From contig JAPLGS010000147.1 of assembly GCA_026390015.1 (NCBI GenBank), forward strand, positions 1 to 46,216: a DNA stretch of 46,216 bases. Reading direction: 5' to 3'. Every line of letters starts with the position of its first letter. The first letter of the stretch is position 1. A program made the translations under genes and the position numbers. Positions 15,074 through 43,014 of this stretch are shown in pieces. The notes below the pieces were generated by a model, which worked only from the letters and a program-made list of their open reading frames with translations, made no database searches and had not been told where the DNA came from. This DNA is from Chloroflexota bacterium (GTDB taxonomy: Bacteria; Chloroflexota; Anaerolineae; Anaerolineales; Villigracilaceae).

Positions 15074-15408
15074 TCAATTTGGCGGCTGGACAATGTGTCG
15101 CCTGTCGTGGCGGCGAGCCATCCTTGACCAACGCCGAGATCGAAGATTTGCAATTCCACGTGATTGGCTGGCAGGTTAAGGTAGTGGATGGCGTCAAACG
15201 GCTTGAACGTGTTTTCAAACTCAAGAATTTTGTTGATGCGATGGAGTTTACAAACAAGATCGCGGTCATCGCTGAAGAGCAGGGACATCATCCGCTCATC
15301 ATTACCGAATGGGGCAGGGTAACTGTCCAATGGTGGACGCATGTGATCAAAGGCTTGCACAAAAACGATTTCATCATGGCTGCCAGGACGGATGAATTGA
15401 TTGGATAA
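15070..15408 (+). CDS. phhB: 4a-hydroxytetrahydrobiopterin dehydratase (pterin carbinolamine dehydratase)
   Basis: A 112-residue PCD/DCoH-family protein that dehydrates 4a-hydroxytetrahydropterins. It shows [16 protein letters not shown] at the N-terminus, the active-site segment [15 protein letters not shown] near residues 73-87, and [17 protein letters not shown], typical of the family. The start is GTG, overlapping the tal-pgi stop by four bases. Its last ~100 bases recur downstream at 16157-16280 on the far side of an MNT/HEPN pair. No aromatic amino acid hydroxylase is in the window, so the substrate pterin is unknown. Confidence 0.92.
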
Positions 15409-15425
15409 GCGGATATAATATCTGT

Positions 15426-15755
15426 ATGAACAAGATAAAACCAAGGGTGCGCGCTCTCAAACTTGCAAAAGAGTTTCGCAAGCGATTGACGAATGCTCTG
15501 GGGCAGCCCATCAAAGTCATCATGTTCGGCTCACAAGCGCGCGGAAACGCAACTAAAGAGTCGGACATTGATTTGCTTGTTATTCTGCCCTCCATTAACA
15601 ACGAATTAATAAACCTTACTTCTGATATTGCGTGGGAAGTTGGCTTTGACGCGGGCAGGGTAATTTCAGCAATTCCAGATACAAAGGAACAAATGAAGCG
15701 TTACGGATTCCTGCCTTTCTACCGTAACATAAAAGAGGAGGGGGTTGTTGTATGA
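15426..15755 (+). CDS. MNT-type nucleotidyltransferase (antitoxin of an MNT/HEPN pair)
   Basis: A 109-residue minimal nucleotidyltransferase with the catalytic signature MFGSQARGNATKESDIDLLV (GSx10DxD type) at about residues 36-55. MNT proteins paired with HEPN proteins act as antitoxins, and some modify the partner by polyadenylylation. The ATG at 15426 has no Shine-Dalgarno. A TATAAT at 15414-15419 sits about 7 bases upstream, so transcription may start at or next to the start codon. The stop overlaps the HEPN start by four bases, the usual arrangement. Confidence 0.88.
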   Translation: MNKIKPRVRALKLAKEFRKRLTNALGQPIKVIMFGSQARGNATKESDIDLLVILPSINNELINLTSDIAWEVGFDAGRVISAIPDTKEQMKRYGFLPFYRNIKEEGVVV

Positions 15756-16151
15756 CGCGTGAGCAGTCTTATAAGAAAGATCTCATAAAATACCGGATTG
15801 ATTGCGCAAATGAATCTTTGCATGATGCGCGCATACTGAAGGATAATGGCGGAAGCCCCTCCAGTATTGTAAACCGCTCGTATTATTCGATTTTTTATGC
15901 CGCGCTTGCATTGCTGGTTACAGCGGATACGGAACCCTCGAAACATAGCGGCGTTTTAGCTAAGTTTGATGAACTGTTTATTCGGCAGGGAATTTTTCCA
16001 AAGGAAATGAGCAAGGTACTTCATCATGCTTTTTGACATGCGGCAGGCGGGAGATTATCAAAAATCCAAAGTGATTACTGAAGAACAGGCAATTCAAGTC
16101 TTTGAGTCTGCGGAAGAGTTCATAAAAACAATCAAAGCAAAAATTATTTAA
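15752..16151 (+). pseudogene. HEPN-domain toxin gene with a one-base frameshift
   Basis: The first 94 residues read as a HEPN protein (YRIDCANESLHDARI, IVNRSYYSIFYAALALL) and then stop early at TGA 16034-16036. Removing one T from the five-T run at 16030-16034 restores the frame: HHAF continues as DMRQAGDYQKSKV and runs to a natural stop at 16149-16151, giving about 132 residues. The AFDxRQxGDY segment is typical of the HEPN C-terminal half. The truncated form lacks part of the helical bundle. HEPN proteins are often RNases that need a conserved Rx4-6H motif, which I cannot locate with certainty here. A homopolymer sequencing error is as likely as a real inactivation. Confidence 0.75.
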
Positions 16152-16156
16152 TTCCC

Positions 16157-18038: not shown

Positions 18039-18536
18039 ATGTATGAATTCGACAAAATTGACATAAAAATTGTAAATTTACTCCTTGAGGATGGCCGTAT
18101 GTCCGCTTCTGAGATGTCCCGACGTATGGGAAAAATCACTGAGCGCACCATCCGTTATCGAATCGAGCGGATGATAAAGGATGAGGTTATCCAGATCAGC
18201 GCTGTTGTCAGCCCTGAAGCGCTTGGCCTGACCATTAAAGCGGATGTCTGGCTTGAAGTTGAGTCTGATCTAATTCTCGAAGTGGCGAAGAAAATAGCTG
18301 CATTCGAGAATGTTACTTATGTTGCGTGCGGCATTGGTCAAAATGATATCAGTATTCAGATCGTCGCAAAAGATACAGCGGAAATTTATTACTTTGTAAC
18401 GGAAGTGGTTCGAAAAGTTACAGGGGTTCGCAAGACTACCACTTCCATTGTGCCGATCATTATCAAAGATGTATATCAGTGGCGGGTTCCAGAACGGATC
18501 ACAAAAGAGATCACTGAAGGCAAAGATTCAGTTTAA
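18039..18536 (+). CDS. Lrp/AsnC family transcriptional regulator
   Basis: A 165-residue feast/famine regulator. The N-terminal winged helix is typical (DKIDIKIVNLLLEDGRMSASEMSRRM, then TIRYRIERMIKDEVI). The C-terminal RAM/ligand domain spans about residues 70-150 (ADVWLEVESD, VTYVACGIGQNDI). Such proteins sense amino acids or related small molecules and often control the adjacent genes. Here the next gene is aminotransferase A, 28 bases downstream. It is the likely local regulator of the amine catabolism island. A promoter at 17975-18003 precedes it. The C-terminal tail after residue 150 is longer than in basic Lrp proteins. Confidence 0.9.
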   Translation: MYEFDKIDIKIVNLLLEDGRMSASEMSRRMGKITERTIRYRIERMIKDEVIQISAVVSPEALGLTIKADVWLEVESDLILEVAKKIAAFENVTYVACGIGQNDISIQIVAKDTAEIYYFVTEVVRKVTGVRKTTTSIVPIIIKDVYQWRVPERITKEITEGKDSV

Positions 18537-18564
18537 AGTTAAACCTGTTATCAGAGGAGAATTT

Positions 18565-19689
18565 ATGTTTGGACCAAAAACACAAACGTTGCAGCAGCGC
18601 GCTCAAAAAGTAATACCGTTGGGTGTGAATTCAAATTTCCGTTTTTGGGGAGAGGGCGTTACTCCTTATGTAGAAAAATCAAAAGGCGTTGAAATGTCTC
18701 CTGCGATTGACATGGTGCGCATGACCTGCTCTGGTACAGAAGCTACGATGCATGCCATTCGCGTGGCGCGCGCTTTCACTGGCCGCGATCTCATCGTAAA
18801 ATTTGAAGGCAATTATCACGGTATGCATGATCATGTTTTATGGTCAACATATTCGCCAGTAGAGTCTTATGGGAATCGTCGCAGCCCGATCGCTGTGCCT
18901 GCTTCTTCAGGAATTCCGAAGGCGATGCGCGAATTTATCATCACGCTCCCGTTCAACGACTTTGAAGGATTCGAGCGGGTCATGAAATCTTACGGGGAGC
19001 AAATTGCTGCAGTTATTACCGAGCCTTGTCAGGGGAATTGCGCGGCTATTAATCCACAGGAAGGATTTTTACAGCTTATCCGCCAACGCACGGAAGAGCA
19101 CGGCTGTCTTTTTATTTTGGATGAAGTGAAGACTGGATTCAGAATCGCCAACGGTGGCGCGCAGGAATACTATGGTCTTATGCCTGATCTGGTGACGTAC
19201 GCAAAAGCTTTGGGTAATGGATACCCTGTGGCGGCGTTCGGTGGCAAGCGTGAGATCATGTCCATTATTGGGCAGGGTGTTTCACAGGGTGGTACGTACA
19301 CCAATAATAAACCTGGCATCGCAGGAGCGTATGCAACTTTGAGCTTATTGAAATCCAAACCTGTTTTGAAAACAATCGAAAAACGCGGACAGCGCCTTAT
19401 GGATGGCTTAAGGGAAATTTTTGAAGAGAATGATATTCCTGCCGTGTTTACAGGCTATCCGGCCATGTTCTCATTTTCTTTGAACATCGACTCTGTTACC
19501 AGCCAACGTGAGTGGGCAAAGAGCGACCATGATCTGTATCTCAAAATAGCGGAGAAAGCCATTGCGCGCGGCGTAATGCCAGATTTTGATCCGCGTGAAC
19601 CATGGTTCCTGTGCTATGAGCATTCTGATGCCGATATTGATGAGACATTGAATGTGTATGCGGAAGCTGTGAAGGAAGTCAAAAAATAA
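18565..19689 (+). CDS. Class III aminotransferase A (GSA-aminomutase-like), internally shortened
   Basis: A 374-residue PLP enzyme of the glutamate-1-semialdehyde aminomutase-like subgroup. Visible are the phosphate-binding CSGTEATMHAIRVARAFTGR, the YHG motif, ILDEVKTGFR with the PLP Asp, and the PLP Lys in TYAKALGNGYP. Relatives are about 430-440 residues. Here the N-terminal VTPYVEKSKG runs straight into VEMSPAIDMVRM, so the segment usually reading 'DvDGneYiDy..GHa..' (about 60 residues) is missing in frame, joined near 18687. This part normally contributes to the fold and dimer interface, so activity is doubtful. The start at 18565 follows AGAGGAG; an upstream in-frame start at 18448 overlaps lrp1 and is rejected. 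Confidence 0.85.
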   Translation: MFGPKTQTLQQRAQKVIPLGVNSNFRFWGEGVTPYVEKSKGVEMSPAIDMVRMTCSGTEATMHAIRVARAFTGRDLIVKFEGNYHGMHDHVLWSTYSPVESYGNRRSPIAVPASSGIPKAMREFIITLPFNDFEGFERVMKSYGEQIAAVITEPCQGNCAAINPQEGFLQLIRQRTEEHGCLFILDEVKTGFRIANGGAQEYYGLMPDLVTYAKALGNGYPVAAFGGKREIMSIIGQGVSQGGTYTNNKPGIAGAYATLSLLKSKPVLKTIEKRGQRLMDGLREIFEENDIPAVFTGYPAMFSFSLNIDSVTSQREWAKSDHDLYLKIAEKAIARGVMPDFDPREPWFLCYEHSDADIDETLNVYAEAVKEVKK

Positions 19690-24144: not shown

Positions 24145-25260
24145 ATGACCAGTGAATTTGCAGTTGAAATGCGCGATGTAGTAAAAAAATTTATTACGCC
24201 CGAAGGGAATGAGATGGCCGCCGTAGACCATGTCACCATGCAGATCAAGAACGGTGAGTTCTTTTCCATGCTTGGTTCTTCTGGCTGCGGCAAGACCACC
24301 TCTTTGCGTATGGTCGCAGGTTTTGAATGGCCTACTGAAGGTGAGGTTTACATCGAGGGGAAAGCCATGGGGCATACACCTCCATTCCAGCGAAAGGTAA
24401 ATACAGTCTTTCAAAATTACGCCCTCTTTCAGCATTTGACCGTCTACCAGAATCTTGCATTTGGATTGGAAATGGAAGGCGCAAAGGAAGATGAGATCAA
24501 GAAACGAGTCGGGCGCGCCCTTGAGATGGTTCAACTTACAGGCATGGATCGGCGCAAGCCCAAACAGCTTTCTGGTGGACAGCAACAGCGCGTCGCACTT
24601 GCCCGCGCCTTGGTCAAAACACCCGATGTTTTACTGCTCGACGAGCCGCTTGGCGCTTTAGACTTAAAACTTCGCAAAGAAATGCAGCTTGAATTAAAAG
24701 CATTGCAGCAGCAATTGGGAATTACTTTTATTTATGTGACGCATGATCAGGAAGAAGCGTTGACCATGTCTGACCGCATTGCTGTGATGAGCAAGGGCAA
24801 GATCCAGCAATTGGGCACGCCTGTTGAAATATATGAGCGTCCCACCAACAAATTCGTCGCAGATTTTATCGGGGAGTCAAACTTTCTCGAAGGCAAGATC
24901 AAATCCATTTCACAGAATGAAGCGAGTGTTTTCGTTTCCAGCATAAATGCTGAAGTGGTCGGCCTTCCTATTTCAAAGGGACTCGTCAAAGGCGAGGAAG
25001 TCATCGTGAGCATTCGCCCGGAGAAAATCCATATCGCTGAAAAAGATGCGATCAATCAAAATATGTTCCGCGCCACCGTGACGAACACAGTTTATATTGG
25101 TGTGGATACGAAAGTTTTTGTGGATGTGCACGGTGCGAAGTTAAAGGTGTGGGAACAGAATCGAATTTCAAGGCTGGACCCGAAATCGTTCTATACGGTC
25201 GGGCAGGAAGTTTGGCTGATGCTGCTTCCTGAAAATACGATCGTACTGAGAAAGGATTGA
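24145..25260 (+). CDS. potA: Spermidine/putrescine ABC transporter ATP-binding protein
   Basis: A 371-residue ABC ATPase with a C-terminal TOBE domain. Walker A is [10 protein letters not shown] near residue 39, followed by the Q-loop FQNYALF, signature [15 protein letters not shown], Walker [13 protein letters not shown] and switch His in [10 protein letters not shown]. After residue ~240 ([10 protein letters not shown]) comes a TOBE-type regulatory domain. Sequence style and operon order (A-B-C-D) fit the polyamine-type importers. Fe3+ or thiamine importers have similar ATPases, but the PotD-like binding protein argues for polyamines. TTGGAG lies upstream of the ATG, and its stop is just before potB. 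Confidence 0.92.
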
Positions 25261-25262
25261 TC

Positions 25263-26186
25263 ATGCTACAGCGACTCCGCGAAAGTAAATCTGCACAAGG
25301 TACGTTATTGGCGCTGCCTACAACAGTGTGGTTATTTGTGTTGTTGATCATTCCGTTGATCCTTACTTTGATAGTGAGCTTTGGCAGGCGCAGTCCTGAC
25401 GGCAATGTGATCTACACGTTTACATTTGAAAATTACACCCGCCTGTTTGGTTACAGTACGAATTGCGCGAATGGACAGCCTTCGTGCTTCGATCCGCTGT
25501 ATGTGAATATTCTTGGGCGTTCCTTATCACTGGCATTCAATACGACAGTTTTGGTGATCTCGCTGGCATATCCGCTGGCATACTTTATCGCGCGCGCGCA
25601 TCCGAAACAGCGAAATATGTATTTGTTCATGGTCTTGATTCCGCTATGGACAAATTTTGTTATTCGCGTCTACGCATGGATGATGTTATTGCGGAAGGAA
25701 GGCGCGATCAATATTATCATCGGCTGGATCGCGCATTTTCTTCATATTCCATTTACGCCTTTTGAGATGTTATATACACCCGGCGCGGTCCTGGTGGGTA
25801 TGGTGTATGAATTTTTGCCTTTCATGATCCTGCCGATCTACACCTCGCTGGAAAAGATCGATCTTTCCCTTTATGAAGCCGCCGCGGATTTGGGCGCGAA
25901 TGCGATCAAGACGTTTTTGCGTGTGACACTTCCATTATCCATGCCGGGTGTGGTGGCAGGGACAATTCTCGTATTTATCCCTGTGATGGGAACGTTCATT
26001 GTGTCAGATATTCTCGGCGGCCGACAGGTGATCCTGGTCGGAAACCTGATCCAGCGTCAGTTCCTGGATGCGCGCGATCCGACCTTTGGTTCCGCCGCTT
26101 CATTAATCCTGATGGTGATGACTCTGATCGTCACGTATTTCTATACGCGTAAATTCGGATTCGGAGAGGAGATCGTCGTCGCATGA
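25263..26186 (+). CDS. potB: Polyamine ABC transporter permease PotB-like
   Basis: A 307-residue permease with about six membrane segments and the EAA coupling motif [20 protein letters not shown] near residue 205. The ATG at 25263 follows AAAGGA by six bases. A TTG at 25257 overlapping the potA stop is an alternative adding two residues. It overlaps potC by four bases (ATGA). Compared with classical PotB, the first periplasmic loop is Cys-containing ([13 protein letters not shown]). Confidence 0.92.
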
Positions 26187-27079
26187 ACCCATTTCGCCGT
26201 TCTCCCTTTGTACTTACTGCCGCGGTTTTGGTGTATATCTTTTTATATGCGCCCATTATAGGACTGGTTCTTTATTCCTTTAATGCCTCGCGCGCAAATG
26301 TGACCTTTGAAGGTTTTATCCCCAAGTATAGTGATCGTATCGTGATGGAAGGAAGCCTGGTAAAGTCGAGCCCGTGCGGGCCATTCCATTGGTATTGTGA
26401 GCTTGCAAAAAATAATGATGTGGCGGAAGCGGCTGGTAATACACTGACCATTGCTTTCATCGCCACGATCATTTCCACGATCATCGGTACCATGGCTGCG
26501 CTTGCGCTTCAACGCTATAACTTCAAGATGAAGCCGTTCTCACAGCTTTCACTTTATATTCCGATCGTGATCCCTGAGATCGTAATGGGCATTGGTATCC
26601 TTACCCTGTTCAGCCAGTTCTTTGGATGGGTAAATGAAACCTTCAACCTCGTCGGCAACGCGCGCCTCTCACTCGGCATGGCAACTGTCACAGCGAGTCA
26701 TATTGCCTTCATGGTGCCCTTTGTGGCGTTGGTTGTGCAGGCTCGCCTGCAAGGCTTCGATAAATCCTACGAAGAAGCCGCCATGGATCTGGGCGCGAAT
26801 GAGTGGATCACCTTCCGCCGCATCACATTTCCTATAATTTTGCCTGGCATTATGTCCGGCGCATTGCTGGCCTTTACTTTATCTCTGGATGATTTTGTGA
26901 TCACGTTCTTCACGAATGGGCCTGGCTCAACAACTCTTCCCATTTATGTGTACGGATTATTACGCCGCATAATCACACCCCAAGTCAACGCACTTTCAAC
27001 CGTGTGGATTTTGGTTGTGTTTATCGCAGTCTTGTTATTACAGATTCTTCAAAACCGCGAGTCGAAGGATCATTCGTAA
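26183..27079 (+). CDS. potC: Polyamine ABC transporter permease PotC-like
   Basis: A 298-residue second permease with about six membrane segments and the EAA motif [21 protein letters not shown] near residue 195. [10 protein letters not shown] near residue 235 is typical of PotC. The loop after the first membrane segment is longer than in E. coli PotC and contains two Cys ([13 protein letters not shown]). The ATG overlaps the potB stop by four bases, indicating coupled translation. Confidence 0.92.
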
Positions 27080-27154
27080 AAGATATTCAGTTATCCCGCG
27101 TTCTAAAAAGATCGCGTCCCCGCTTGATTTCAAAATCTTCCAAAGGAGAAAGAG

Positions 27155-28309
27155 ATGAATAGAAATAGAATTTTCAAACTGCTGGCGCTCCTTGTTATTG
27201 CAAGTATGGCGCTGACCGCGTGCGGCGGCGGAGCTGCCGCTACTCAACCTGCCGCTGATGGCCCCAAGGTCACTTCGACTGGGTTTGAGTGCCCTGCACC
27301 TGAATTTCCGATTGAGGTTACATCCAAGGAATTAAATATTTTCGTGTGGACGGAATATATTCCTACTGATATGCAGGATTGTTTTGAGCTGGTCTATGGA
27401 GTAAAAGTCAATCGTGATGAATATTCTGCCAATGAAGAAATGTATGCCAAGTTGTCAGCGGGTGGTTCATCGTATGATCTCGTCCAGCCTACTGACTATA
27501 TTGTCAGCCTCATGATCCGTCAGAATCTGTTGCAGGAATTCGATCATAGTAAATTGCCTGCGATCAAAAACTTCGACCCGAACTATATGGATTTTGCTTT
27601 TGACCCGGGTAATAAATATACAATTCCGTATCAGGCTGGCACCGATGCCATTGTATACAATGCAGATGCAGTTACCAATGTGCCAACATCATGGGCTGAC
27701 TTGTGGAAACCTGAATATGCCGGCAAGATGGTCTTCCTTGATGACTCACGCGCCGTAATTGGCGCAACCCTGCTTACTTTGGGATATGATGTCAATACAA
27801 AAAACCCTGCAGAGTTGGATGAAGCAAAGGCAAAACTGGCTGAACTGGTACCGAATATTAAGCTGTTCGACAGTGACAGCCCCAAGACAGCCCTCATCGC
27901 AGGTGACGTTGACCTGGGACTGACCTGGACTGGAGAAGCCTTCCTCGCCCAGAAAGAAAAACCATCCATTCAATATGTTTACCCCACCGAAGGCGCGATC
28001 ATCTGGCAGGATAACTGGGCCATGCCCAAGGAAGCTCCGCACGCAGACGCTGCTTATGCCTGGTTGAATTACACCAATCAAGGAAATATTTTCTGGATGA
28101 TGCTGCGCGATTTCCCATTCACCAATCCGAATCAAGCCGCGCTTGATTTTTCAAAGACCGATCACAAAGATCTTTATGATGCCTACATGGCTTCTCCGAT
28201 CACAAATACACCGGTGGAGGCGATCAAGAATTCGCATCGCATTGACGATGTTGGCGAAGCACTCCCGCTTTATGATCAGATATGGACCGAAGTAAAAGGC
28301 GGTCAATAG
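27155..28309 (+). CDS. potD: Polyamine ABC transporter substrate-binding lipoprotein PotD-like
   Basis: A 384-residue extracytoplasmic binding protein. It has a lipoprotein signal (hydrophobic residues 8-20, lipobox LTAC with the Cys at about residue 23) followed by an Ala/Gly-rich tether. The mature protein starts KELNIFVWTEYIP, corresponding to the 'L.vynW.eYi' start of PotD/PotF, and has YDLVQPTDYIV, IPYQAGTDAIVYN and WADLWKPEYAGK. Polyamine-binding proteins use acidic and aromatic residues in the cleft, but I cannot assign them reliably. AAAGGAGA lies upstream of the ATG. A 75-base gap separates it from potC, and a strong terminator follows, closing the transport operon. Confidence 0.9.
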   Translation: MNRNRIFKLLALLVIASMALTACGGGAAATQPAADGPKVTSTGFECPAPEFPIEVTSKELNIFVWTEYIPTDMQDCFELVYGVKVNRDEYSANEEMYAKLSAGGSSYDLVQPTDYIVSLMIRQNLLQEFDHSKLPAIKNFDPNYMDFAFDPGNKYTIPYQAGTDAIVYNADAVTNVPTSWADLWKPEYAGKMVFLDDSRAVIGATLLTLGYDVNTKNPAELDEAKAKLAELVPNIKLFDSDSPKTALIAGDVDLGLTWTGEAFLAQKEKPSIQYVYPTEGAIIWQDNWAMPKEAPHADAAYAWLNYTNQGNIFWMMLRDFPFTNPNQAALDFSKTDHKDLYDAYMASPITNTPVEAIKNSHRIDDVGEALPLYDQIWTEVKGGQ

Positions 28310-28377: not shown

Positions 28378-28468
28378 GATTTAATCGCGCGTTCCGAATC
28401 TTTGCTGATTTTCTCTGTACTAAAAGTTATAAGAATGATACTTTTAGTTCAAAATCATCATAAATCTA

Positions 28469-28497
28469 TTGACAATAGTGCAGAATGGTTATATTAT
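28469..28497 (+). promoter_or_regulatory. Strong sigma-70-like promoter of the second Lrp gene
   Basis: TTGACA (28469-28474), a 17-base spacer and TATTAT (28492-28497). The expected transcription start, about 7 bases downstream, coincides with the ATG at 28504, so the mRNA is probably leaderless. Confidence 0.75.
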
Positions 28498-28503
28498 ATA
28501 GCT

Positions 28504-28971
28504 ATGGAAAGCGTAATCAACATAAACCAACCTGAAGGCCTCGACCCGATAGACCAGTATATTATCGAGGCTCTTCAAAAAGATGGTCGAGTGGCATTTG
28601 CCCAGATCGCCGAACAGCTCAAAGTGTCGCCGGGTATGATCCGCCAGCGCTACAATCGCCTGGTTGAGTTGGACTATCTGAAAGTCGTCGCGGTCACCAA
28701 TCCGCTGATGATGGGCGTGCGAAAAATGGCAATGATCGGAATCCGCACTGATGGCGGCAAGTTGATGCAGGTCGCTGAAAAACTATCCGCGCTAAAAGAA
28801 GTCATCTATCTGGTGATATTGAGCGGCCGTTATGACATCATGATCGAAGTCTTTTGCCGTGACCATGAAGAGTTATTAAGTTTTATGATCGAAAAACTTT
28901 CCACAGTGGATGGTGTGCGGGATACAGAATCATTCATGCACTTGAAGATCGTCAAGGAAATTTATTTTTAG
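28504..28971 (+). CDS. Lrp/AsnC family transcriptional regulator (second)
   Basis: A 155-residue regulator. The N-terminal helix-turn-helix reads DQYIIEALQKDGRVAFAQIAEQLKVSPGMIRQRYNRL, and the C-terminal ligand-sensing domain (about residues 70-150) includes VIYLVILSGRYDIMIEVFC. I chose the ATG at 28504. An earlier in-frame ATG (28402) adds 34 non-homologous residues that span the promoter. No Shine-Dalgarno precedes the ATG, in keeping with a leaderless transcript. It sits between the polyamine importer and the saccharopine-dehydrogenase-like gene and may control either. It is clearly distinct in sequence from the first Lrp protein. Confidence 0.9.
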   Translation: MESVININQPEGLDPIDQYIIEALQKDGRVAFAQIAEQLKVSPGMIRQRYNRLVELDYLKVVAVTNPLMMGVRKMAMIGIRTDGGKLMQVAEKLSALKEVIYLVILSGRYDIMIEVFCRDHEELLSFMIEKLSTVDGVRDTESFMHLKIVKEIYF

Positions 28972-29070: not shown

Positions 29071-29190
29071 ATGAAAGCGTTCGTTCTTAGGTTCAAAGCA
29101 CTGGGGGATACGTTTGTGAAGGCGTATTTAATGTCTCTGATGATCACGATCAATCCAGAAAGTCAGAACAAGATAGTTGACCGATATTAA
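29071..29190 (+). CDS. Putative 39-residue small protein
   Basis: A small ORF with a good ribosome site (GAGAGG, 6-7 bases before the ATG), bracketed by lrp2 100 bases upstream and a strong terminator starting 6 bases after its stop. The product is basic and partly hydrophobic in the middle (KAYLMSLMITI), ending NKIVDRY. I do not recognise it. The ribosome site and terminator placement favour a real gene over chance, but length alone gives little support. It could be co-transcribed with lrp2. Confidence 0.45.
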   Translation: MKAFVLRFKALGDTFVKAYLMSLMITINPESQNKIVDRY

Positions 29191-29196
29191 TGTGAA

Positions 29197-29232
29197 TGCC
29201 TCAGCCGCCGGGGAAGGCGGCTGAGGCATTTT
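29197..29232 (+). terminator. Rho-independent terminator after the small ORF
   Basis: TGCCTCAGCCGCC and GGCGGCTGAGGCA form a perfect 13-base-pair stem around GGGGAA, followed by TTTT. Confidence 0.92.
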
Positions 29233-29313
29233 CGATCATATATTCAGAGTGTTTCCACAGTAATCTAACTCGCATTATTGCGGGTTATAAAACCAAACGG
29301 AGAATGGATCGTC

Positions 29314-30463
29314 ATGAAAGTCTTGCTAGTTGGTGTGGGTGGGGTAGGGGAAGCGATTGCGGCGATTGCCAAACCGCGCGCCTGGATGGAACAAATGGTG
29401 CTGGCCGATTACAACGTCAAGCGCGCCAAGGAAGTGCAGAAGAAACTTGGTCAGAACAAACGCTTCCCTGTCGAATTCATTGATGCCAGCAAGAAATCTG
29501 AAATTGTAAAGCTCGCTAAAAAATATAAAGTGGATATGATCATGAACGCGGTCGATCCCATTTTCAACGAGCAGATCTTCGATGCCGCCTTTACCGCTGG
29601 TGTGACCTACATGGACATGGCGATGACCCTGTCTACGCCGCATGCCAAAGATCCGTTTAACAAGTGCGGAGTCAAATTGGGCGATTATCAATTCGCCAAA
29701 GCCAAAGACTGGAAAAAGAAGAAACAGCTCGCGCTGGTCGGAATTGGAGTGGAGCCTGGCATGGCGGATGTGTTTGCGCGTTATGCCGCTGAGCATCTCT
29801 TCGACGAGATTGAAGAACTTGGCATTCGTGACGGCGCCAATATTGCCATTGAAGGGTATGAATTTGCGCCCAACTTCTCGATCTGGACAACGATCGAAGA
29901 ATGTCTCAATCCGCCCGTGATCTGGGAAAATGGAAAGTGGTTCACCACCGCGCCATTCTCGGAACCTGAAATATTTGATTTCCCCGAGATCGGCCCCGTG
30001 GAAATCGTCAACGTGGAGCATGAAGAAGTCCTGCTTATGCCGCGCTGGGTAAAGACCAAGCGCGCCACTTTCAAATATGGTCTCGGTGATCAATTTATCG
30101 GCGTGCTTAAAACCTTGCACATGCTTGGTCTTGATAGTAAGGAGAAGATCACCGTCAAAGGCGTGCAAGTCGCGCCGCGTGATGTGGTGGTCGCCTGCCT
30201 GCCCGACCCTGCTCATCTTGGCGACAAGATGTCTGGCAAGACCTGCGCTGGCACCTGGGTGAAAGGAACAAAAGGATGCGTGGGGCTGTCAAGCCGTCGT
30301 GGCGCAGACCGCGTTCAGCGCAGTCATCGCCATGGATTTGCTTGAGCATGGTGTGTGGAAAGGTGTGGGCGTTCTTGGCCCCGAAGCTTTCCCGCCTGAT
30401 CCATTCATGGAAAAAATGGAAGATTACGGCTTCCCGTATGGGATGAAGGAAATGGCCGCATAA
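29314..30463 (+). pseudogene. Saccharopine dehydrogenase-like gene with deletion and frameshift
   Basis: The frame from ATG 29314 reads as a saccharopine/carboxynorspermidine dehydrogenase-family protein: Rossmann start MKVLLVGVGGVGEAIA, then VDMIMNAVDPIFN, TYMDMAMT, VGIGVEPGMADVFARYA. It stays normal to CAGTWVKGTK near 30273. The rest of the family C-terminus is in the next frame from 30278 (WGCQAVVAQTAFSAVIAMDLL ... VLGPEAFPP) to TAA 30461-30463. About 20 residues usually found at the junction are missing, so a non-multiple-of-three deletion explains it. As written, the product ends in 20-odd meaningless residues at 30343-30345. The family includes enzymes acting on amino-acid and polyamine intermediates. 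The substrate is unknown. Confidence 0.85.
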
Positions 30464-30472
30464 AGTCAATCA

Positions 30473-30510
30473 AGCGGATAAACGTGAGAGCGTTTATCCG
30501 CTCTTTTTTT
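30473..30510 (+). terminator. Rho-independent terminator after the saccharopine-dehydrogenase-like gene
   Basis: AGCGGATAAACG and CGTTTATCCGCT pair around TGAGAG, followed by C and seven T residues. Confidence 0.93.
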
Positions 30511-30513
30511 GTA

Positions 30514-30635
30514 ATGTCGTTGCGAGCGCACTCGCGAAGCAACCTCCAGTTCGATGGTGTATCTCGGCGATAAGTTCCGCCTGTTTAATCGGAGGTTGCT
30601 TCGGGCAAAGAACAAATGCGCCCTCGCAACGACAT
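30514..30635. repeat. REP/MITE-like inverted repeat element, 122 bp
   Basis: Outer arms ATGTCGTTGCGAG (30514-30526) and CTCGCAACGACAT (30623-30635). Inner arms GAAGCAACCTCC (30536-30547) and GGAGGTTGCTTC (30591-30602). It carries no gene and ends about 20 bases before the permease start. Same style as 22602-22676. Confidence 0.85.
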
Positions 30636-30654
30636 GAGAGATTCGGAGGGCATA

Positions 30655-32244
30655 ATGACAATCAAGTCTGCTGAAGTGCATGCCATCACTGCTGAGACAA
30701 AAAAACTCAAACGTGAGTTGACCCTGTTACCGCTTTTTGGTTTGATCTATTTCACAGTCTGCGGCGGTGCTTTCGGAGCAGAACCAATGGTCGGCTGGTC
30801 AGGACCGGGATTGGCTTTGCTTCTTTTTGTACTAACTCCTTTATTCTTCAGTATTCCAAATATGTTGATGGTGCGCGAAATGCAATCCATGATGCCGGTG
30901 GAGGGTGGGTACTATCATTGGCTGAAAGTCGCGTTCGGTCCCTTCGTGGGCTACATGGGCGGGTGGATGAACTGGGTCGTCTCGTGGGTGGATGTTTCCA
31001 TTTATCCTGTGCTGGCCGCTTATTATCTTGGATACTTCATCCCCGCCTTGCGTCAGGGTGCAACGATCGGGGGCGTGTTTGTCGACAGTACGTGGCTTTC
31101 GTTCCTTGTAGCAGTTACTTTAATTTGGCTAGTCTCCGCCTTGAACGTGCGCGGCGCGCGCTTTTCAGGATTGCTCACCAACTGGTTGGGCGTCCTGATG
31201 CTCCTGCCGTTAATCGCGTTGACCGTGGTCGGTTTCATGGCATGGTACAAAAGCGGTACAACCATTCATTTGCCTTTCCTACCCGGCGGAGCGGAAGTTA
31301 ATGTCAGCAATACCATTGGCGCGTTGAGCACAGGCATCTTTGTCGCCATGTGGAATTTCATGGGCTGGGAGCTGCCTGCCGCAGCCGGCGATGAGATCGT
31401 CAATCCCAAACGGACATACCCACTGGCGATGGTACTGGTTTTAGTCGCCGCAATCGCGACGTATTCATTGCCGACCCTGGCGGGTTTGTACGGCGGCGCG
31501 GGTGCAGATGGCCGTTATCAAATGTGGGGTATTGAAGAATACGAGAGCGGCGAAGGCATTGGTGCTGTTCTTGATGAATATGGAGTTCCTGTTGAGAAGG
31601 CGCAATCCTGGGGCGTGGATACTGCCAGCTCGGTCGGATGGGAATTCCCTGATATTGCCCATGCCGTTGCGGATAATTTAATGGGCCAAACCAACGGGAC
31701 GCTTGCCCTTGCTTTGGGAGGGTTGGTCACATTCTCGGCGGTGTTGAGCATGATCGGTTTGTTCATCGGCAATGGACTCGGCGGAACACGTGTGCCCTTT
31801 GCGATGGCGGCAGATGGGATGATGCCGAATTTCATGGTAAAAGTCCACCCGAAGTATGGAACACCTTGGGTTGCAATTTTGTTCTGCGGGTTGATCTATT
31901 CCATCTTCTCGCTTTCGGCATTTGCAGCGCTTGTGGTAATTGATGTATTCCTCAACATGCTTGTATTAATGGCGGAATTCTTCGCCATGTGGAAACTGCG
32001 CTTTTCAATGCCTGATCTGGAGCGGAAGAAAGTGCCCGGCGGTTATTTTGGATTAACTCTTGTGACACTTGCTCCTGCTCTGATCATCAGCCTCGCAATT
32101 TATAGCCAATATACCGAGGAAGGCATGGCTTCCATTTCGTGGGCGCTGGGCGCGATGGTGATCGGCGCGATCCTGTATTTTCCGATCCGCATGTGGATCA
32201 AGCCCGGGATTCCAGATGTCGATCCGTTCGTGGCGGGCGATTAA
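30655..32244 (+). CDS. APC-family amino acid/polyamine permease
   Basis: A 529-residue permease with about 12 membrane segments. The first segment LLPLFGLIYFTVCGGAFGAEPMV has the GGxxGxE-like substrate-binding motif of the APC superfamily, and MMPVEGGYYHWLKVAFGPFVGYMGGW matches the 'GG.Y.w...a.G...g...gw' region. A soluble insertion of about 60 residues around 290-340 (ADGRYQMWGIEEYESGEG and on) is unusual. The start at 30655 follows GGAGGG; an upstream ATG (30616) lies inside the REP element. It would supply amino acids or amines to the island enzymes. Substrate undetermined. Confidence 0.88.
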   Translation: MTIKSAEVHAITAETKKLKRELTLLPLFGLIYFTVCGGAFGAEPMVGWSGPGLALLLFVLTPLFFSIPNMLMVREMQSMMPVEGGYYHWLKVAFGPFVGYMGGWMNWVVSWVDVSIYPVLAAYYLGYFIPALRQGATIGGVFVDSTWLSFLVAVTLIWLVSALNVRGARFSGLLTNWLGVLMLLPLIALTVVGFMAWYKSGTTIHLPFLPGGAEVNVSNTIGALSTGIFVAMWNFMGWELPAAAGDEIVNPKRTYPLAMVLVLVAAIATYSLPTLAGLYGGAGADGRYQMWGIEEYESGEGIGAVLDEYGVPVEKAQSWGVDTASSVGWEFPDIAHAVADNLMGQTNGTLALALGGLVTFSAVLSMIGLFIGNGLGGTRVPFAMAADGMMPNFMVKVHPKYGTPWVAILFCGLIYSIFSLSAFAALVVIDVFLNMLVLMAEFFAMWKLRFSMPDLERKKVPGGYFGLTLVTLAPALIISLAIYSQYTEEGMASISWALGAMVIGAILYFPIRMWIKPGIPDVDPFVAGD

Positions 32245-33062: not shown

Positions 33063-33110
33063 GTGGTGGTTGAGTAGCCCTGCGTGTTTTTCGCAGGGCG
33101 TATCGAAACC
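33063..33110. repeat. REP-like hairpin (GGTGGTYGAGTAG type) in the AOR1 leader
   Basis: GTGGTGGTTGAGTAG, then a CCCTGCG/CGCAGGG stem with a T-rich loop, then CGTATCGAAACC. It is an inverted copy of the element type at 35126-35176. Confidence 0.8.
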
Positions 33111-33134
33111 ATAACATTCCAAACGGAGGATGCT

Positions 33135-35052: not shown

Positions 35053-35176
35053 TGGTGGTCGAGTAGGCGGTGCGCGAAGCGGCCCGCCTACTCGACCACC
35101 GAGTAACAAGATAACTCTTGAAAACTTGGTGGTCTCGATACATCCCGCAAAATCATGCGGGACTACTCGACCACCA
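35053..35176. repeat. Pair of REP-like elements (GGTGGTCGAGTAG type) between AOR1 and gabT
   Basis: First element 35053-35100, with ends TGGTGGTCGAGTAGGC and GCCTACTCGACCACC. Second element 35126-35176, with TTGGTGGTCTCGATAC, a CCCGCA/TGCGGG stem and CTACTCGACCACCA. The two fill nearly the whole 157-base gap. Confidence 0.85.
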
Positions 35177-35199
35177 GTGTTTTATGAAACGAGGAAACA

Positions 35200-36483
35200 A
35201 TGACCAATCAATTATTTCAAGATAATGCCACCCATATGACTCCCGCATGGAGCCGCATTTTCAATTTTGTGGCCGACCACGCCGAAGGCGCGTACATCTA
35301 CACCGACGACGGAAAAAAACTGCTCGACTTCACCAGCGGTATCGGTGTCACCAACACGGGTCACTGCCATCCCAAAGTCGTTGAAGCGATTCGCGAACAG
35401 GCTGGCTTATTCCTTCACGCGCAGGTCAACATTGTTATTCACAAGCCGATGCTGCAACTCATCGAAGAACTTCGCAAAATTACTCCACCTGCGATGGACA
35501 GTTTCTTCTTCGCCAACTCAGGCGCAGAAGCTTTGGAGAACGCCGTTAAGATCGCGCGCGCTGCAACAGGTAAACAAAACATCATCGTCTTCAACGGTTC
35601 CTTCCACGGACGCACCGCGCAGACTATGGCACTGACCACTTCCAAAACAGGCTATCGCACCGGTTTTGGTCCACTACCGTCGGGCATTTATGTCGCGCCA
35701 TTTCCGTATGCTTTTCATTTAAATATGAGCGAAGAACAAGCGAGTCAATATGCGTTAGGTCAACTTGAATATTTGCTCGCCTCACAAACTGCGCCGAAAG
35801 ATACCGCCGCGATCCTGATCGAATCCGTGATGGGCGAAGGCGGATACATCGTCCCGCCGACATCCTTCATGAAAGGTCTGCGTGAGATTTGCGACAAGCA
35901 TGGCATCATGCTCATTTTCGACGAAGTGCAATCAGGCTTTGGGCGCACGGGTAAGTGGTTCGCTCTCGAGCATTTTGGCGTTGTCCCTGATATCATCACC
36001 GCCGCCAAAGGACTCGCCTCGGGCATGCCGCTCTCTGCCGTATTCAGCCGTACTGACATTATGAAGAAACTGGATGTTGGTTCGATCGGTGGAACATACG
36101 GTGGTAATGCAGTCGCCTGCGCGGCTGGTGTGGCAACTATCCGCGCGATGAGAGATGAGAAAATGCTGGAGAATGCCGCTGAGAAAGGAATCCAGCTAAT
36201 GACGGGTCTGCGAAAATTTCAGGAGGAATATCCAGAGATCGGCGATGTGCGCGGGCGTGGACTTATGGTCGGCACTGAATTCATCATTGATGGCAGTCAG
36301 GCAAAAGCCAAACAACTGGTCAAAGATATTATTCACTCCGCCGAAGAAAAAGGCATGTTGCTGCTTTCGTGCGGCACGTATGACAATACCCTGCGTTGGA
36401 TCCCGCCATTGAATGTCACATCCGAACAGATCAATGACGGTTTGAATATTTTTGGCGAAGCATTAAAGGAAAGCGTAAAGTAG
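35200..36483 (+). CDS. gabT: Class III aminotransferase D (4-aminobutyrate aminotransferase-like)
   Basis: A 427-residue PLP aminotransferase of the GabT/acetylornithine subgroup. Motifs: YIYTDDGKKLLDFTSGIGVTN, TGHCHPKVVEAI, FANSGAEALENAVKIAR, FNGSFHGRTAQTMALT, IFDEVQSGFGRTG with the PLP Asp, and ITAAKGLASGMPLSA with the PLP Lys. GGTYGGNAVACAAG also fits. It would convert 4-aminobutyrate to succinate semialdehyde, downstream of the putrescine route. ACGAGGA precedes the ATG. Its last bases (36433-36470) recur at 36969-37006 beyond a small two-gene cassette. Confidence 0.9.
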   Translation: MTNQLFQDNATHMTPAWSRIFNFVADHAEGAYIYTDDGKKLLDFTSGIGVTNTGHCHPKVVEAIREQAGLFLHAQVNIVIHKPMLQLIEELRKITPPAMDSFFFANSGAEALENAVKIARAATGKQNIIVFNGSFHGRTAQTMALTTSKTGYRTGFGPLPSGIYVAPFPYAFHLNMSEEQASQYALGQLEYLLASQTAPKDTAAILIESVMGEGGYIVPPTSFMKGLREICDKHGIMLIFDEVQSGFGRTGKWFALEHFGVVPDIITAAKGLASGMPLSAVFSRTDIMKKLDVGSIGGTYGGNAVACAAGVATIRAMRDEKMLENAAEKGIQLMTGLRKFQEEYPEIGDVRGRGLMVGTEFIIDGSQAKAKQLVKDIIHSAEEKGMLLLSCGTYDNTLRWIPPLNVTSEQINDGLNIFGEALKESVK

Positions 36484-36549
36484 TCGAAATTTGAAGTTAC
36501 GAGATTTTTGACTATTTCATTCAGAGTATAATTTTCACCAGAGGCAACC

Positions 36550-36852
36550 ATGACACTTAATACTCTCGAATCCAGCGCTAGACGATTATTTCCCAACCGC
36601 AAGCCCGAGCAGGTAATTGCAGAATTACTGCTTGAAAAGGCGCAAAAAAATCTCATTAAGTATCAAAGCATGGCGCGTCAATTTCAGGAAAAATATAAAG
36701 AAACATTTGAGGCTTTCCGCAAGAAAATGCTTCAAGCGAAATTAAATTCCACTGCCGAGCAGGATTATTTTGACTGGGAACTCGCGGTGACAGGTATTGA
36801 AGATATGCAGGATGAGATCAAGAAACTTAAACCGTTGAGTAAAAAAGCATGA
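36550..36852 (+). CDS. Small alpha-helical protein, likely antitoxin of a two-gene cassette
   Basis: A 100-residue, highly charged, mostly helical protein (LFPNRKPEQVIAELLLEKAQ, QDYFDWELAVTGIEDMQDE). From memory, similar small proteins sit upstream of DUF6516/TumE-type toxins, but I cannot confirm this without a search. A TATAAT at 36527-36532 and GAGG upstream of the ATG support expression. The -35 (TTGACT, 13-base spacer) is poorly spaced. Its stop overlaps the next ORF by ATGA, typical of toxin-antitoxin pairs. It sits between gabT and a repeated copy of the gabT 3' end. Confidence 0.6.
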   Translation: MTLNTLESSARRLFPNRKPEQVIAELLLEKAQKNLIKYQSMARQFQEKYKETFEAFRKKMLQAKLNSTAEQDYFDWELAVTGIEDMQDEIKKLKPLSKKA

Positions 36853-37019
36853 ATGTTCCAGATCTTGCAAGTGGCTTGCAGAGGGAATTAAAACGCCGCA
36901 AGTATTTTGTTAGCCTGGAAATACTTGACCAGACCTTGAACATCATAAAAGCGCATTTGTATATTTCTAATGACGGTTTGAATATTTTTGGCGAAGCGTT
37001 AAAGGATGTGGTTGGTTGA
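36849..37019 (+). pseudogene. Truncated toxin-like ORF fused to a copy of the gabT 3' end
   Basis: The ORF starts at ATG 36849 (overlapping the upstream stop) and reads LQRELKRRKYFVSLEILDQTLNI then IIKAHLYIS. After about 40 residues it switches at 36969 into NDGLNIFGEALKD, which is the gabT C-terminus in the same frame, and stops at 37017-37019. The first 40 residues resemble the start of DUF6516/TumE-like toxins, which are normally over 100 residues, so most of the toxin is missing. Total 56 residues. Probably non-functional. The toxin identity is an inference from memory and position. Confidence 0.6.
36969..37006 (+). repeat. Direct repeat of the gabT 3' end (partner at 36433-36470)
   Basis: 38 bases starting AATGACGGTTTGAATA with a single A/G difference (GCA versus GCG, synonymous). 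After the repeat the two sequences diverge (LKESVK versus LKDVVG in translation). The cassette between the copies is 498 bases. Confidence 0.95.
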
Positions 37020-40442: not shown

Positions 40443-42154
40443 GTCAAATTTGGCGGATCAATGTACGAACACAGGAGCTCAAACGTGAACCTGCTCCTGC
40501 TTCCTGGCAGCGCCTCGGCGGGCGCGGACTGCTCGCGCGTATTCTCGTAGATGAAGTGGATGCGAAATGCGATCCGCTTGGCGCAGAAAATAAATTGATC
40601 TTTGCACCCGGTCTATTAGTTGGGCATATCCTTTCATCCACCGATAGAATTTCCATTGGTGGTAAGTCCCCGTTGACTGGTGGAATTAAAGAAGCCAATG
40701 CGGGCGGACGCACTGGTTATCACATGGCTTTCATGGGTATCCACGCGCTCATTATTGAAGATGCTCCAAATGAAGATAGCTACTGGGTTTTGCATCTTTC
40801 TTTGAACGGCGCGAAATGGGAAAAAGCAGACTATATTACTGGTTTGGGCGTCTATGAAACTGCGCCAAAACTGTTGGAAAAATATGGCGATAAAGTTGCG
40901 ATCGCGTTGATCGGTCCCGGCGGTGAAATGCGGATGAAGTCTGCGGGCATTCAAAATATTGATAAAGATAAAATCCCGTCACGTATTGCCGCTCGCGGCG
41001 GACTCGGCGCGGTGATGGGCTCGAAGGGATTAAAGGCTATAGTATTCGATCATGCCGGTGGGCAGAAACCTGCCATCGCGAATCCAGAAGCGTTTAAAGT
41101 CGCACAGAAAGACTACACCAAGTCAGTCATGGATCATCCGCAGTCAGTCACGTATCGTGATTATGGTACTGCGGCCATGGCGCAAATGACTCAACGTTTT
41201 GCGGCTTTAACAGTTCATAATTTTTCGCGCGGCACGTTTGATAATGTAGAAAATATCAGCGGCGAGACATTGCGCGAGTTTACGTTGACGCGCGGCAAGC
41301 CGTCTGACCCGGCGCATGCCTGCATGGCAGGCTGCACGATCAAATGCTCGAATGTCTTTGGCGGGGAGGATGGAAAAATTATCGTCTCGCCGTTGGAGTA
41401 TGAGACCATTGGTTTGATGGGCACGAATATTGATATAGATTCTCTCGATTCAATTGGCCGCTTGAACTGGCACGTCAATGATCTGGGACTTGATTCAATT
41501 GAAATTGGAGGCTCGCTTGGTGTAGCCGCTGAAGCAGGTTTAATGAGATGGGGAAGCGAAGAAGATGCTCAGAAGTTGATCGATGAGATTCGCGCGGGCA
41601 CAGAGCTTGGTCACATCCTCGGCGATGGCGCTGTGAGTGTTGGTAAAAAATATAATATTGAACGAGTGCCTGCCGTGAAGGGACAGACCATGTCAGCCTA
41701 CGAGCCGCGTTCGATCAAGGGCACCGGCGTGACGTTTGCGACAACTCCGCAGGGTGCGGATCATACCTGTGGATTGACCATCCGCGCGCAGGTCAATCAT
41801 CTCGACCCAACACAGCAAAGAGAAGCATCGTTGAATGCGCAATTAAATATGGCTGGTTACGATACTATCGGGGCTTGTATCTTTGCTGGCTTTGGATATG
41901 CCGCTACTCCCGATGGAGTGGTTAAACGTCTGCTCAAGGCGCGTTATGGCTGGGATGATCTGCCTGATAATATTTTGCAAGCGTTAGGAAAAGAAACCAT
42001 TAAGCTGGAGCGTGAGTTCAACAAACGTGCAGGCTTCACCGCAAAAGATGATCGCCTACCTGAATGGATGACGAAGGAAGCCATCCCTGAAAACGGATCA
42101 GTGTTTGATGTGAGCGAGGATGTGCTCGATCATATTTTTGACGGGATAGAATAA
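40439..42154 (+). CDS. Aldehyde ferredoxin oxidoreductase family protein (AOR2)
   Basis: A 571-residue AOR-family protein, shorter than AOR1 and divergent from it. Visible are IWRINVRTQELKREPAP, RLGGRGLLARILVDEV, SIGGKSPLTGGIKEANAGGR, ARGGLGAVMGSKGLKAIVFD and the cluster ligands C295, C299 and C303 (CMAGCTIKC). This is CxxxCxxxC spacing, in contrast to CxxCxxxC in AOR1. A fourth Cys is near TIGACIFAG. The start at 40439 overlaps the PIN stop (ATGA); an ATG two codons earlier is possible. It shares a transcript with aminotransferase E and the toxin pair. The substrate is unknown; an aldehyde made by aminotransferase E is a natural guess. Confidence 0.88.
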   Translation: MSQIWRINVRTQELKREPAPASWQRLGGRGLLARILVDEVDAKCDPLGAENKLIFAPGLLVGHILSSTDRISIGGKSPLTGGIKEANAGGRTGYHMAFMGIHALIIEDAPNEDSYWVLHLSLNGAKWEKADYITGLGVYETAPKLLEKYGDKVAIALIGPGGEMRMKSAGIQNIDKDKIPSRIAARGGLGAVMGSKGLKAIVFDHAGGQKPAIANPEAFKVAQKDYTKSVMDHPQSVTYRDYGTAAMAQMTQRFAALTVHNFSRGTFDNVENISGETLREFTLTRGKPSDPAHACMAGCTIKCSNVFGGEDGKIIVSPLEYETIGLMGTNIDIDSLDSIGRLNWHVNDLGLDSIEIGGSLGVAAEAGLMRWGSEEDAQKLIDEIRAGTELGHILGDGAVSVGKKYNIERVPAVKGQTMSAYEPRSIKGTGVTFATTPQGADHTCGLTIRAQVNHLDPTQQREASLNAQLNMAGYDTIGACIFAGFGYAATPDGVVKRLLKARYGWDDLPDNILQALGKETIKLEREFNKRAGFTAKDDRLPEWMTKEAIPENGSVFDVSEDVLDHIFDGIE

Positions 42155-42155
42155 A

Positions 42156-42188
42156 AAACCTCCGAGGTCTTTAAGACCTCGGAGGTTT
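42156..42188. terminator. Bidirectional terminator between AOR2 and the CPBP gene
   Basis: A perfect palindrome of 16-base arms (AAACCTCCGAGGTCTT) around one base, flanked by A- and T-rich tails. Confidence 0.88.
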
Positions 42189-42192
42189 GCTT

Positions 42193-43014
42193 TTAACTTT
42201 TATTCATTCGATTTTGATAGATCAACAATCCCACCGCGCCAAATAATATGGATGTGATGATGCCTTCATTGGTGGGGGTGAAGATAGGCGCCATCGAACT
42301 GTTGACTTTGATGAAGCCATTGATCAATAACGGCATACTTAGCGCATTGATTACATTATGCAGAACGAAGACAGGCCAGACAGATTTACTCACCAGCCGT
42401 AATTCTCCGAAAAGAATGGCGGTTGGGAACATGGCGAATAATCCAATGGCGAGAAAAACGGGGATGCTGGTTGTAATGGATGACATCAATATATTGCGGT
42501 CAAGGAAATAATAATAGTAAGGCAAATGCCATGACCACCATAGAATACCGACGATCACATGATTCAATAATGGATGAATTTTTGTGGCTTCCAGCCTCGG
42601 AGTCAAATATCCGCGCCAGGCAAATTCCTCGAAGATGTTCTTCATCAGCGAACCGATGAGCATGACACCCGCCGCCGAGAGATAGCCGTCGAAACTGTCC
42701 GCGCTGACAATGCCGAGGAGCGCACCCAGACCAAAAGTTAAGAGAGCCGCGAGCGGATAGACCAGAATCGCCGCCAGATACCACTTCCAGCTTGAGATGA
42801 GATTCAATCCAAAGCCAGCATCCTTCCAGCCATCCCCGCCGAATGCGCGCAGAAAAATCCCAACGAGTGCGGGAGATGTGAGCCAGACCAGCGCGCCTAG
42901 GCTTTGCATAGGCGGTTGGGTGTTGCCTGTGACGGTGTTGAGCCAAATGCCGAGCCAGCCGCCACCAACGGTGAAAAGCGCGACTATGATAATGTTGCGA
43001 ATTGTTTTGTTCAT
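42193..43014 (-). CDS. CPBP family intramembrane metalloprotease (Abi/CAAX type)
   Basis: A 273-residue membrane protein with about eight hydrophobic segments. The catalytic motif EEFAWRGYL is near residue 132, and the second motif HLPYYYYF, with the metal-binding His, near 163. A further His lies in VLHNVINAL near 220. CPBP proteases process prenylated proteins in eukaryotes and bacteriocins or unknown targets in bacteria. I moved the start to the ATG ending at 43014, which has GGAGAAAC directly upstream, instead of the first in-frame ATG at 43035. Single gene, role unknown. Confidence 0.88.
   Translation of the reverse strand: MNKTIRNIIIVALFTVGGGWLGIWLNTVTGNTQPPMQSLGALVWLTSPALVGIFLRAFGGDGWKDAGFGLNLISSWKWYLAAILVYPLAALLTFGLGALLGIVSADSFDGYLSAAGVMLIGSLMKNIFEEFAWRGYLTPRLEATKIHPLLNHVIVGILWWSWHLPYYYYFLDRNILMSSITTSIPVFLAIGLFAMFPTAILFGELRLVSKSVWPVFVLHNVINALSMPLLINGFIKVNSSMAPIFTPTNEGIITSILFGAVGLLIYQNRMNKS

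Follow-up and report, generated by a model that had tools for sequence, protein, structure and literature searches.

A 56-bp gap, probably technical, in a carboxyspermidine-dehydrogenase-like gene of a Chloroflexota genome assembly

Introduction

The closest described relatives of the enzyme considered here are the carboxyspermidine dehydrogenases, represented by 8DEB from B. fragilis and by 8H4Z, 8H50 and 8H52 from H. pylori, with 4INA and 4RL6 as further relatives. In PMC10413350, roles in carboxyspermidine dehydrogenase are described for a His-Glu-Glu motif and for a nicotinamide-packing Thr. Thr344 of 8DEB packs against the nicotinamide ring, and the His-Glu-Glu motif is reported to be absent in 1E5Q and 3ABI (PMC10413350). 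As for the polyamine pathway in Chloroflexota, the accessible text of PMC11999265 mentions "Chloroflexi" only within a reference title.

That faulty assembly can give rise to apparent pseudogenes is documented, and a raised count of them is a recognised mark of such assemblies (PMC11017572). The spurious pseudogenes discussed there (Cooley and Wright 2024) resemble the present case in that broken frames occur in well-kept genes and are enriched in one assembly. The abstract of PMC11017572 concerns frameshifts and internal stops and names the assembler, the platform and the coverage as causes, whereas the gaps described below are clean deletions of 40-170 bp.

In this study, we analysed a dehydrogenase gene in a stretch of 46,216 nucleotides, here called the window, which lies on contig C157 of genome G000. 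The G000 assembly comprises 4.31 Mb in 177 contigs, is 95.2% complete and 3.9% contaminated, and is presumably metagenome-derived. The nearest relative of the gene is found in genome G008, a public lake metagenome bin, where the orthologue carries the labels L003 and L032 for one and the same locus.

Results and Discussion

The intact orthologue resembles carboxyspermidine dehydrogenases

The gene matched the profiles PF03435 and PF16653, both above their cut-offs. The intact orthologue L032 matched carboxyspermidine dehydrogenases over its whole length (phmmer E 1e-66 to 5e-45), with an identity to them of only about 26-32%. Its predicted fold (mean pLDDT 85.1, pTM 0.87) reproduced their three domains, with a whole-chain TM of 0.90 (on query) to both 8DEB and 4INA. 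The superfamily fold was also shared with 3ABI (TM 0.75), 2AXQ (0.71) and 6Y87 (about 0.65-0.70, on query), which were weaker structural matches than the carboxyspermidine dehydrogenases. The active-site residues were found in place: H236-E237-E238 and T351 were invariant among the 22 aligned sequences and aligned with those of 8DEB.

The NCBIfam equivalog NF043000 has a cut-off of 800 bits. L032 scored 211.3 and the window product 157, and L032 was not filed as a carboxy(nor)spermidine dehydrogenase because its score fell below this cut-off. The partner decarboxylase nspC (TIGR01047) scored over its cut-off in none of 101 genomes and gave weak matches in 21 of them; in the control for this search, it was over the cut-off in one of 14 well-known genomes. 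True saccharopine dehydrogenase is the more distant relative of the family and carboxyspermidine/carboxynorspermidine dehydrogenase the nearer one, a kinship that falls short of established membership. The first-pass annotation had called the gene saccharopine-dehydrogenase-like, which is right for the superfamily and is narrowed here to these nearer relatives. The intact protein is predicted to be an NAD(P)-dependent amine/opine-type dehydrogenase of that superfamily. Its substrate is probably polyamine-derived, judging from the adjacent potABCD-like and Lrp-type genes.

A 56-bp gap shifts the reading frame

As read in the assembly, the gene occupies 29314-30345 on the forward strand (the strand also of the second deletion on this contig, the neighbouring genes and the terminator-like hairpin described below), and its own-frame product has 343 aa compared with the roughly 401 expected in the family. 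Codons 1-320 (29314-30273) follow the family frame, and the last of them is Lys320 at 30271-30273. A deletion junction lies at 30273-30275 and moves the frame by +1, with an ambiguity of 1 bp, since the G at 30274 could belong to either flank. The out-of-frame tail (30274-30345) encodes 23 unrelated residues followed by a stop at 30343-30345. The next frame preserves the remainder of the gene (30275-30463): it reads DAWGCQAVVAQT... from 30275, corresponds to residues 340-401 of the relative, and ends at the natural stop of the family at 30461-30463.

Compared with G008, 56 bp are missing, which is residues 321-339 (19 codons) minus one base. The flanks are pristine. Residues 1-321 were 99% identical to the G008 protein, and DNA identity was 96.25% over gene bases 1-961 and 96.3% beyond the junction. 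Both flanks aligned without other indels, and the junction homology was 1 bp.

The earlier reading of this locus as a gene broken by a deletion plus a frameshift was correct for the assembled sequence, as was its placing of the second frame's natural stop at 30463. It had followed the family frame to about 30273, in agreement with the position of Lys320. Its point of resumption, 30278, has to be corrected, since the next frame runs from 30275 (D-A-W-G-C-Q) and its W lies at 30281. The loss that it estimated at about 20 residues and an odd number of bases is close in residues, at 19 codons less one base, and wrong in parity, the count of 56 being even and not a multiple of three.

The truncation removes conserved parts of the enzyme

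Six positions within residues 321-339, namely G322, Y328, L329, Y330, D334 and N335, did not vary across the 22 aligned sequences, of which 21 are distinct. The model of the intact protein places strand 323-334 and the first part of a helix in this segment. The tail is out of frame in the window; it contains helices 346-363 and 380-389 in the same model, and its residue Thr351 aligns with Thr344 of 8DEB. Unlike the carboxyspermidine dehydrogenases, the window copy is thus without residues 321-339 and has the rest out of frame. We infer that a product of 343 aa would be non-functional.

The junction is confined to one assembly

We examined the distribution of the gene and of its junction among related genomes. 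The 56-bp segment was present in all nine relatives of the gene alignment. An orthologue was matched over residues 1 to about 320 and was free of stops in 61 of 100 relatives, the own genome being excluded. The open frame, counted from stop to stop, had at least 401 codons in 60 of these 61; the remaining one (G044) had 331 codons and ended at a contig edge. Two further genomes gave partial matches only (G030, residues 1-88; G062, residues 226-320) and stand outside the 61. The junction pattern, with up to 2 mismatches allowed, occurred in one of the 57 genomes of the genus, which was the own genome. No second intact copy of the gene was found in the G000 assembly, and no viral relatives were found. 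The open frame of the window gene is disrupted relative to its orthologues, and by this criterion the gene as assembled reads as a pseudogene.

Before the junction, 36 codons differed between the window gene and that of G008. The window branch accounted for 13 of these differences (12 silent, 1 replacement) and the G008 branch for 11 (10 silent, 1 replacement); the other 12, all silent, could be assigned to neither. After the junction, 7 of 63 codons differed from G008, 6 of them silently. Because silent changes dominate its branch (12 to 1), the window gene shows no accumulated decay. The view that both halves are well preserved and that the event is recent or artificial agrees with these mostly silent changes and with the clean junction.

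Similar clean deletions occur elsewhere in the assembly

A second clean deletion was found on the window's own contig, in a class-III aminotransferase gene (ORF 18448-19689) that is GntE/HemL-like by NCBIfam, under the cut-off. It lies at 18686-18688, with the break between 18687 and 18688, and removes 174 bp, or 58 codons in frame; the segment was present in G008, G016 and G051. Four more were located on three other contigs of G000, in a family-2 glycosyltransferase (C150:88489, 55 bp, frameshift), an NAD-dependent epimerase (C6:17819, 41 bp, frameshift), a CoA-ligase/ATP-grasp protein (C6:9393, 45 bp) and a nicotinate-phosphoribosyltransferase-like protein (C37:105296, 72 bp). Each of the six coding deletions (the 56-bp one and the five others of 41-174 bp) had a junction homology of 0-2 bp. 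Five of the six segments were present in G008 and G016, and all six deletions were specific to G000. In the 72-bp case, all 24 fully covered relatives, including G016, matched in one full-length piece, and G000 alone was split. Three of the six lengths (174, 72 and 45) were multiples of three, compared with two expected without selection.

These deletions were seen in a limited sample, in which 1.09 of the 4.31 Mb of G000 was set against 0.83 Mb from G016 and 0.18 Mb from G008, the overlap being much less. At the gene level, G000 could be checked for 83 G016 genes (97.3 kb), and G016 for 86 G000 genes (97.8 kb); for the pair with G008, the figures were 113 G008 genes (124.6 kb) in G000 and 112 G000 genes (123.7 kb) in G008. 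Genes of low identity, at contig edges or less than half matched were set aside. Some losses near gene starts escape this screen in either direction, and the 174-bp event was caught against G008 only at the DNA level.

In the comparison with G016, G000 had five in-gene deletions of at least 40 bp and G016 had none as large; without the window's contig, only three G000 deletions were left. At the DNA level against G008 (137,818 aligned bases), all seven clean deletions of at least 40 bp were in G000 and none in G008, among 28 indels of at least 20 bp, a figure in which one event is counted as two. One of the seven, of 826 bp at C6:10896, has no assigned polarity, and in G008 it falls within no ORF. 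DNA that G000 has in addition to G008 (97, 174, 536, 537, 883, 1675, 1901 and 2111 bp, and 69 bp in a variable gene) fell in diverged or repeat-flanked intervals. Binomial p values were 0.016 (7:0), 0.031 (6:0, polarised coding), 0.125 (6:1) and 0.25 (three frameshifting). They are descriptive, because the stretches were partly picked after the first breaks: for two of the three extra G008 stretches, around C150:80-100 kb and around C6:1-20 kb, breaks had already been seen when they were chosen, the C37 stretch was picked without prior sight of breaks, and the G016 contigs were picked for length and for containing the window's counterpart.

Two local routes to deletion were considered and rejected. 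G008 has a 4-bp repeat (GATG) spaced 57 bp apart, and exchange between short repeats would remove 57 rather than 56 bp. Hairpin-driven deletion was rejected because the deleted stretches, taken as a group, folded no better than random windows; the shares of random windows with folding equal to or better than theirs were 0.12-0.13, 0.82, 0.89, 0.14-0.18, 0.55-0.64 and 0.04-0.05.

A technical cause is favoured over biological loss

The 56 bp are absent from one assembly only, between pristine flanks, and like deletions are present in unrelated genes of that assembly. From the sequence comparisons, we consider it probable that the gap and the loss of frame are technical rather than cellular in origin, and that the organism probably has an intact gene. 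An assembly as fragmentary as this one could have lost the 56 bp, and with them the frame, through a misjoin, a consensus error or a chimeric read at low coverage. The technical cause is favoured because like clean deletions hit unrelated genes on three other contigs. The same observation speaks against a real and very recent null allele, in which a 56-bp deletion in the strain or population would have abolished the enzyme, perhaps during loss of a polyamine/amine island, since it means that the pathway is not singled out. In the alignment with G008, moreover, no breaks were found in the neighbouring pot and Lrp genes, and the product would be without the strand, the helices and the nicotinate-contact residue of a conserved enzyme. 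A null allele of this kind has in its favour the precise junction, the lack of a second copy in the assembly, flank conservation that fits a recent event, and the 174-bp deletion in another gene of the same island; we regard it as unlikely, at roughly one chance in a handful. The 174-bp aminotransferase deletion would likewise suit the idea of an island being lost, which is not favoured. The suggestion of the first-pass annotation that one branch of the island's pathway might have been removed is accordingly not the likeliest reading.

A process acting across the whole genome is considerably less probable than a null allele. It would require a lineage in which clean deletions, each of about 40-170 bp and nearly devoid of junction homology, have come in a burst, for example by error-prone end joining, and have knocked out about one gene in 20. 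The six deletions, with 0-2 bp of homology, in different genes and all specific to G000 among the genomes compared, are what such a lineage would leave; a truly deletion-prone lineage would give the same picture as a technical cause. Fresh damage in about 5% of some 113 compared genes would nevertheless be a heavy load, and the deleted stretches showed no hairpin tendency. We know of no precedent for such a load of fresh clean deletions. Programmed ribosomal frameshifting, by which the two frames would be joined into a shorter working enzyme, could appeal to the second frame being intact to its natural stop. It would not supply residues 321-339, with their six invariant positions and the strand 323-334 of the model. 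It is excluded because only the own genome, among the 57 of the genus, has the junction, and because the frame stays long and unbroken in 60 of the 61 other orthologues; conservation of the same frame change in relatives, which the first-pass annotation had named as the sign of programmed frameshifting, was thus not found.

If the technical cause is correct, the finding is of little weight as biology, being an apparent gene loss. It calls for caution, because within the compared sample the assembly has short clean deletions in several conserved genes: losses of pathways in G000, including the polyamine-linked dehydrogenase and the aminotransferase, are not credible until the reads are checked. 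Should the deletions be true, the lineage would have an unusual deletion process and would be worth study.

Neighbourhood of the gene

An Lrp/AsnC-type regulator gene (28402-28971; PF01037, PF13404) lies directly upstream of the dehydrogenase gene. Of 72 related loci, 31 had an Lrp match no further than about 1 kb upstream, and 28 of these also had a potD match. Further upstream are polyamine ABC transporter genes (potABCD-like, 24145-28309), with profile matches for a potA-like (24145-25260), a potC-like (26183-27079) and a potD-like gene (27155-28309); the ORF between the potA-like and potC-like genes (25257-26186) is assigned by position only. Just past the natural stop of the dehydrogenase gene, a hairpin with a T run (30473-30509) resembles an intrinsic terminator by consensus match, and five such terminator-like sites were found compared with a mean of 2.0 in shuffles. 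An APC-family amino-acid permease gene (30616-32244; PF13520) follows downstream, with close matches (at least 56% identity) in 9 of 72 related loci.

Several smaller features were also observed. A 39-codon ORF at 29071-29190, between the Lrp and dehydrogenase genes, was kept in 8 of 72 related loci (E < 1e-7), or in 10 of 72 when E values up to 0.1 are admitted, and its own genome has one other weak match; it is possibly a small protein or a leader. Downstream of this ORF, at about 29198-29236, a strong G+C-rich hairpin and a short run of T residues were seen by eye, and they are absent from the terminator listing. Past the terminator of the dehydrogenase gene, the interval 30511-30640 holds about 97 bp more than G008 and by eye contains an inverted-repeat element. 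Compared with G008, the intervals 36470-36969 and 15408-16155 are longer by about 540 and 880 bp, and the G008 matches on either side of them overlap by 38 and 137 bp; the extra DNA represents either insertions in the window or collapse at repeats in G008. Short stretches at about 33064-33119, 35116-35193 and 42150-42200 match many places in related genomes and are therefore dispersed repeats.
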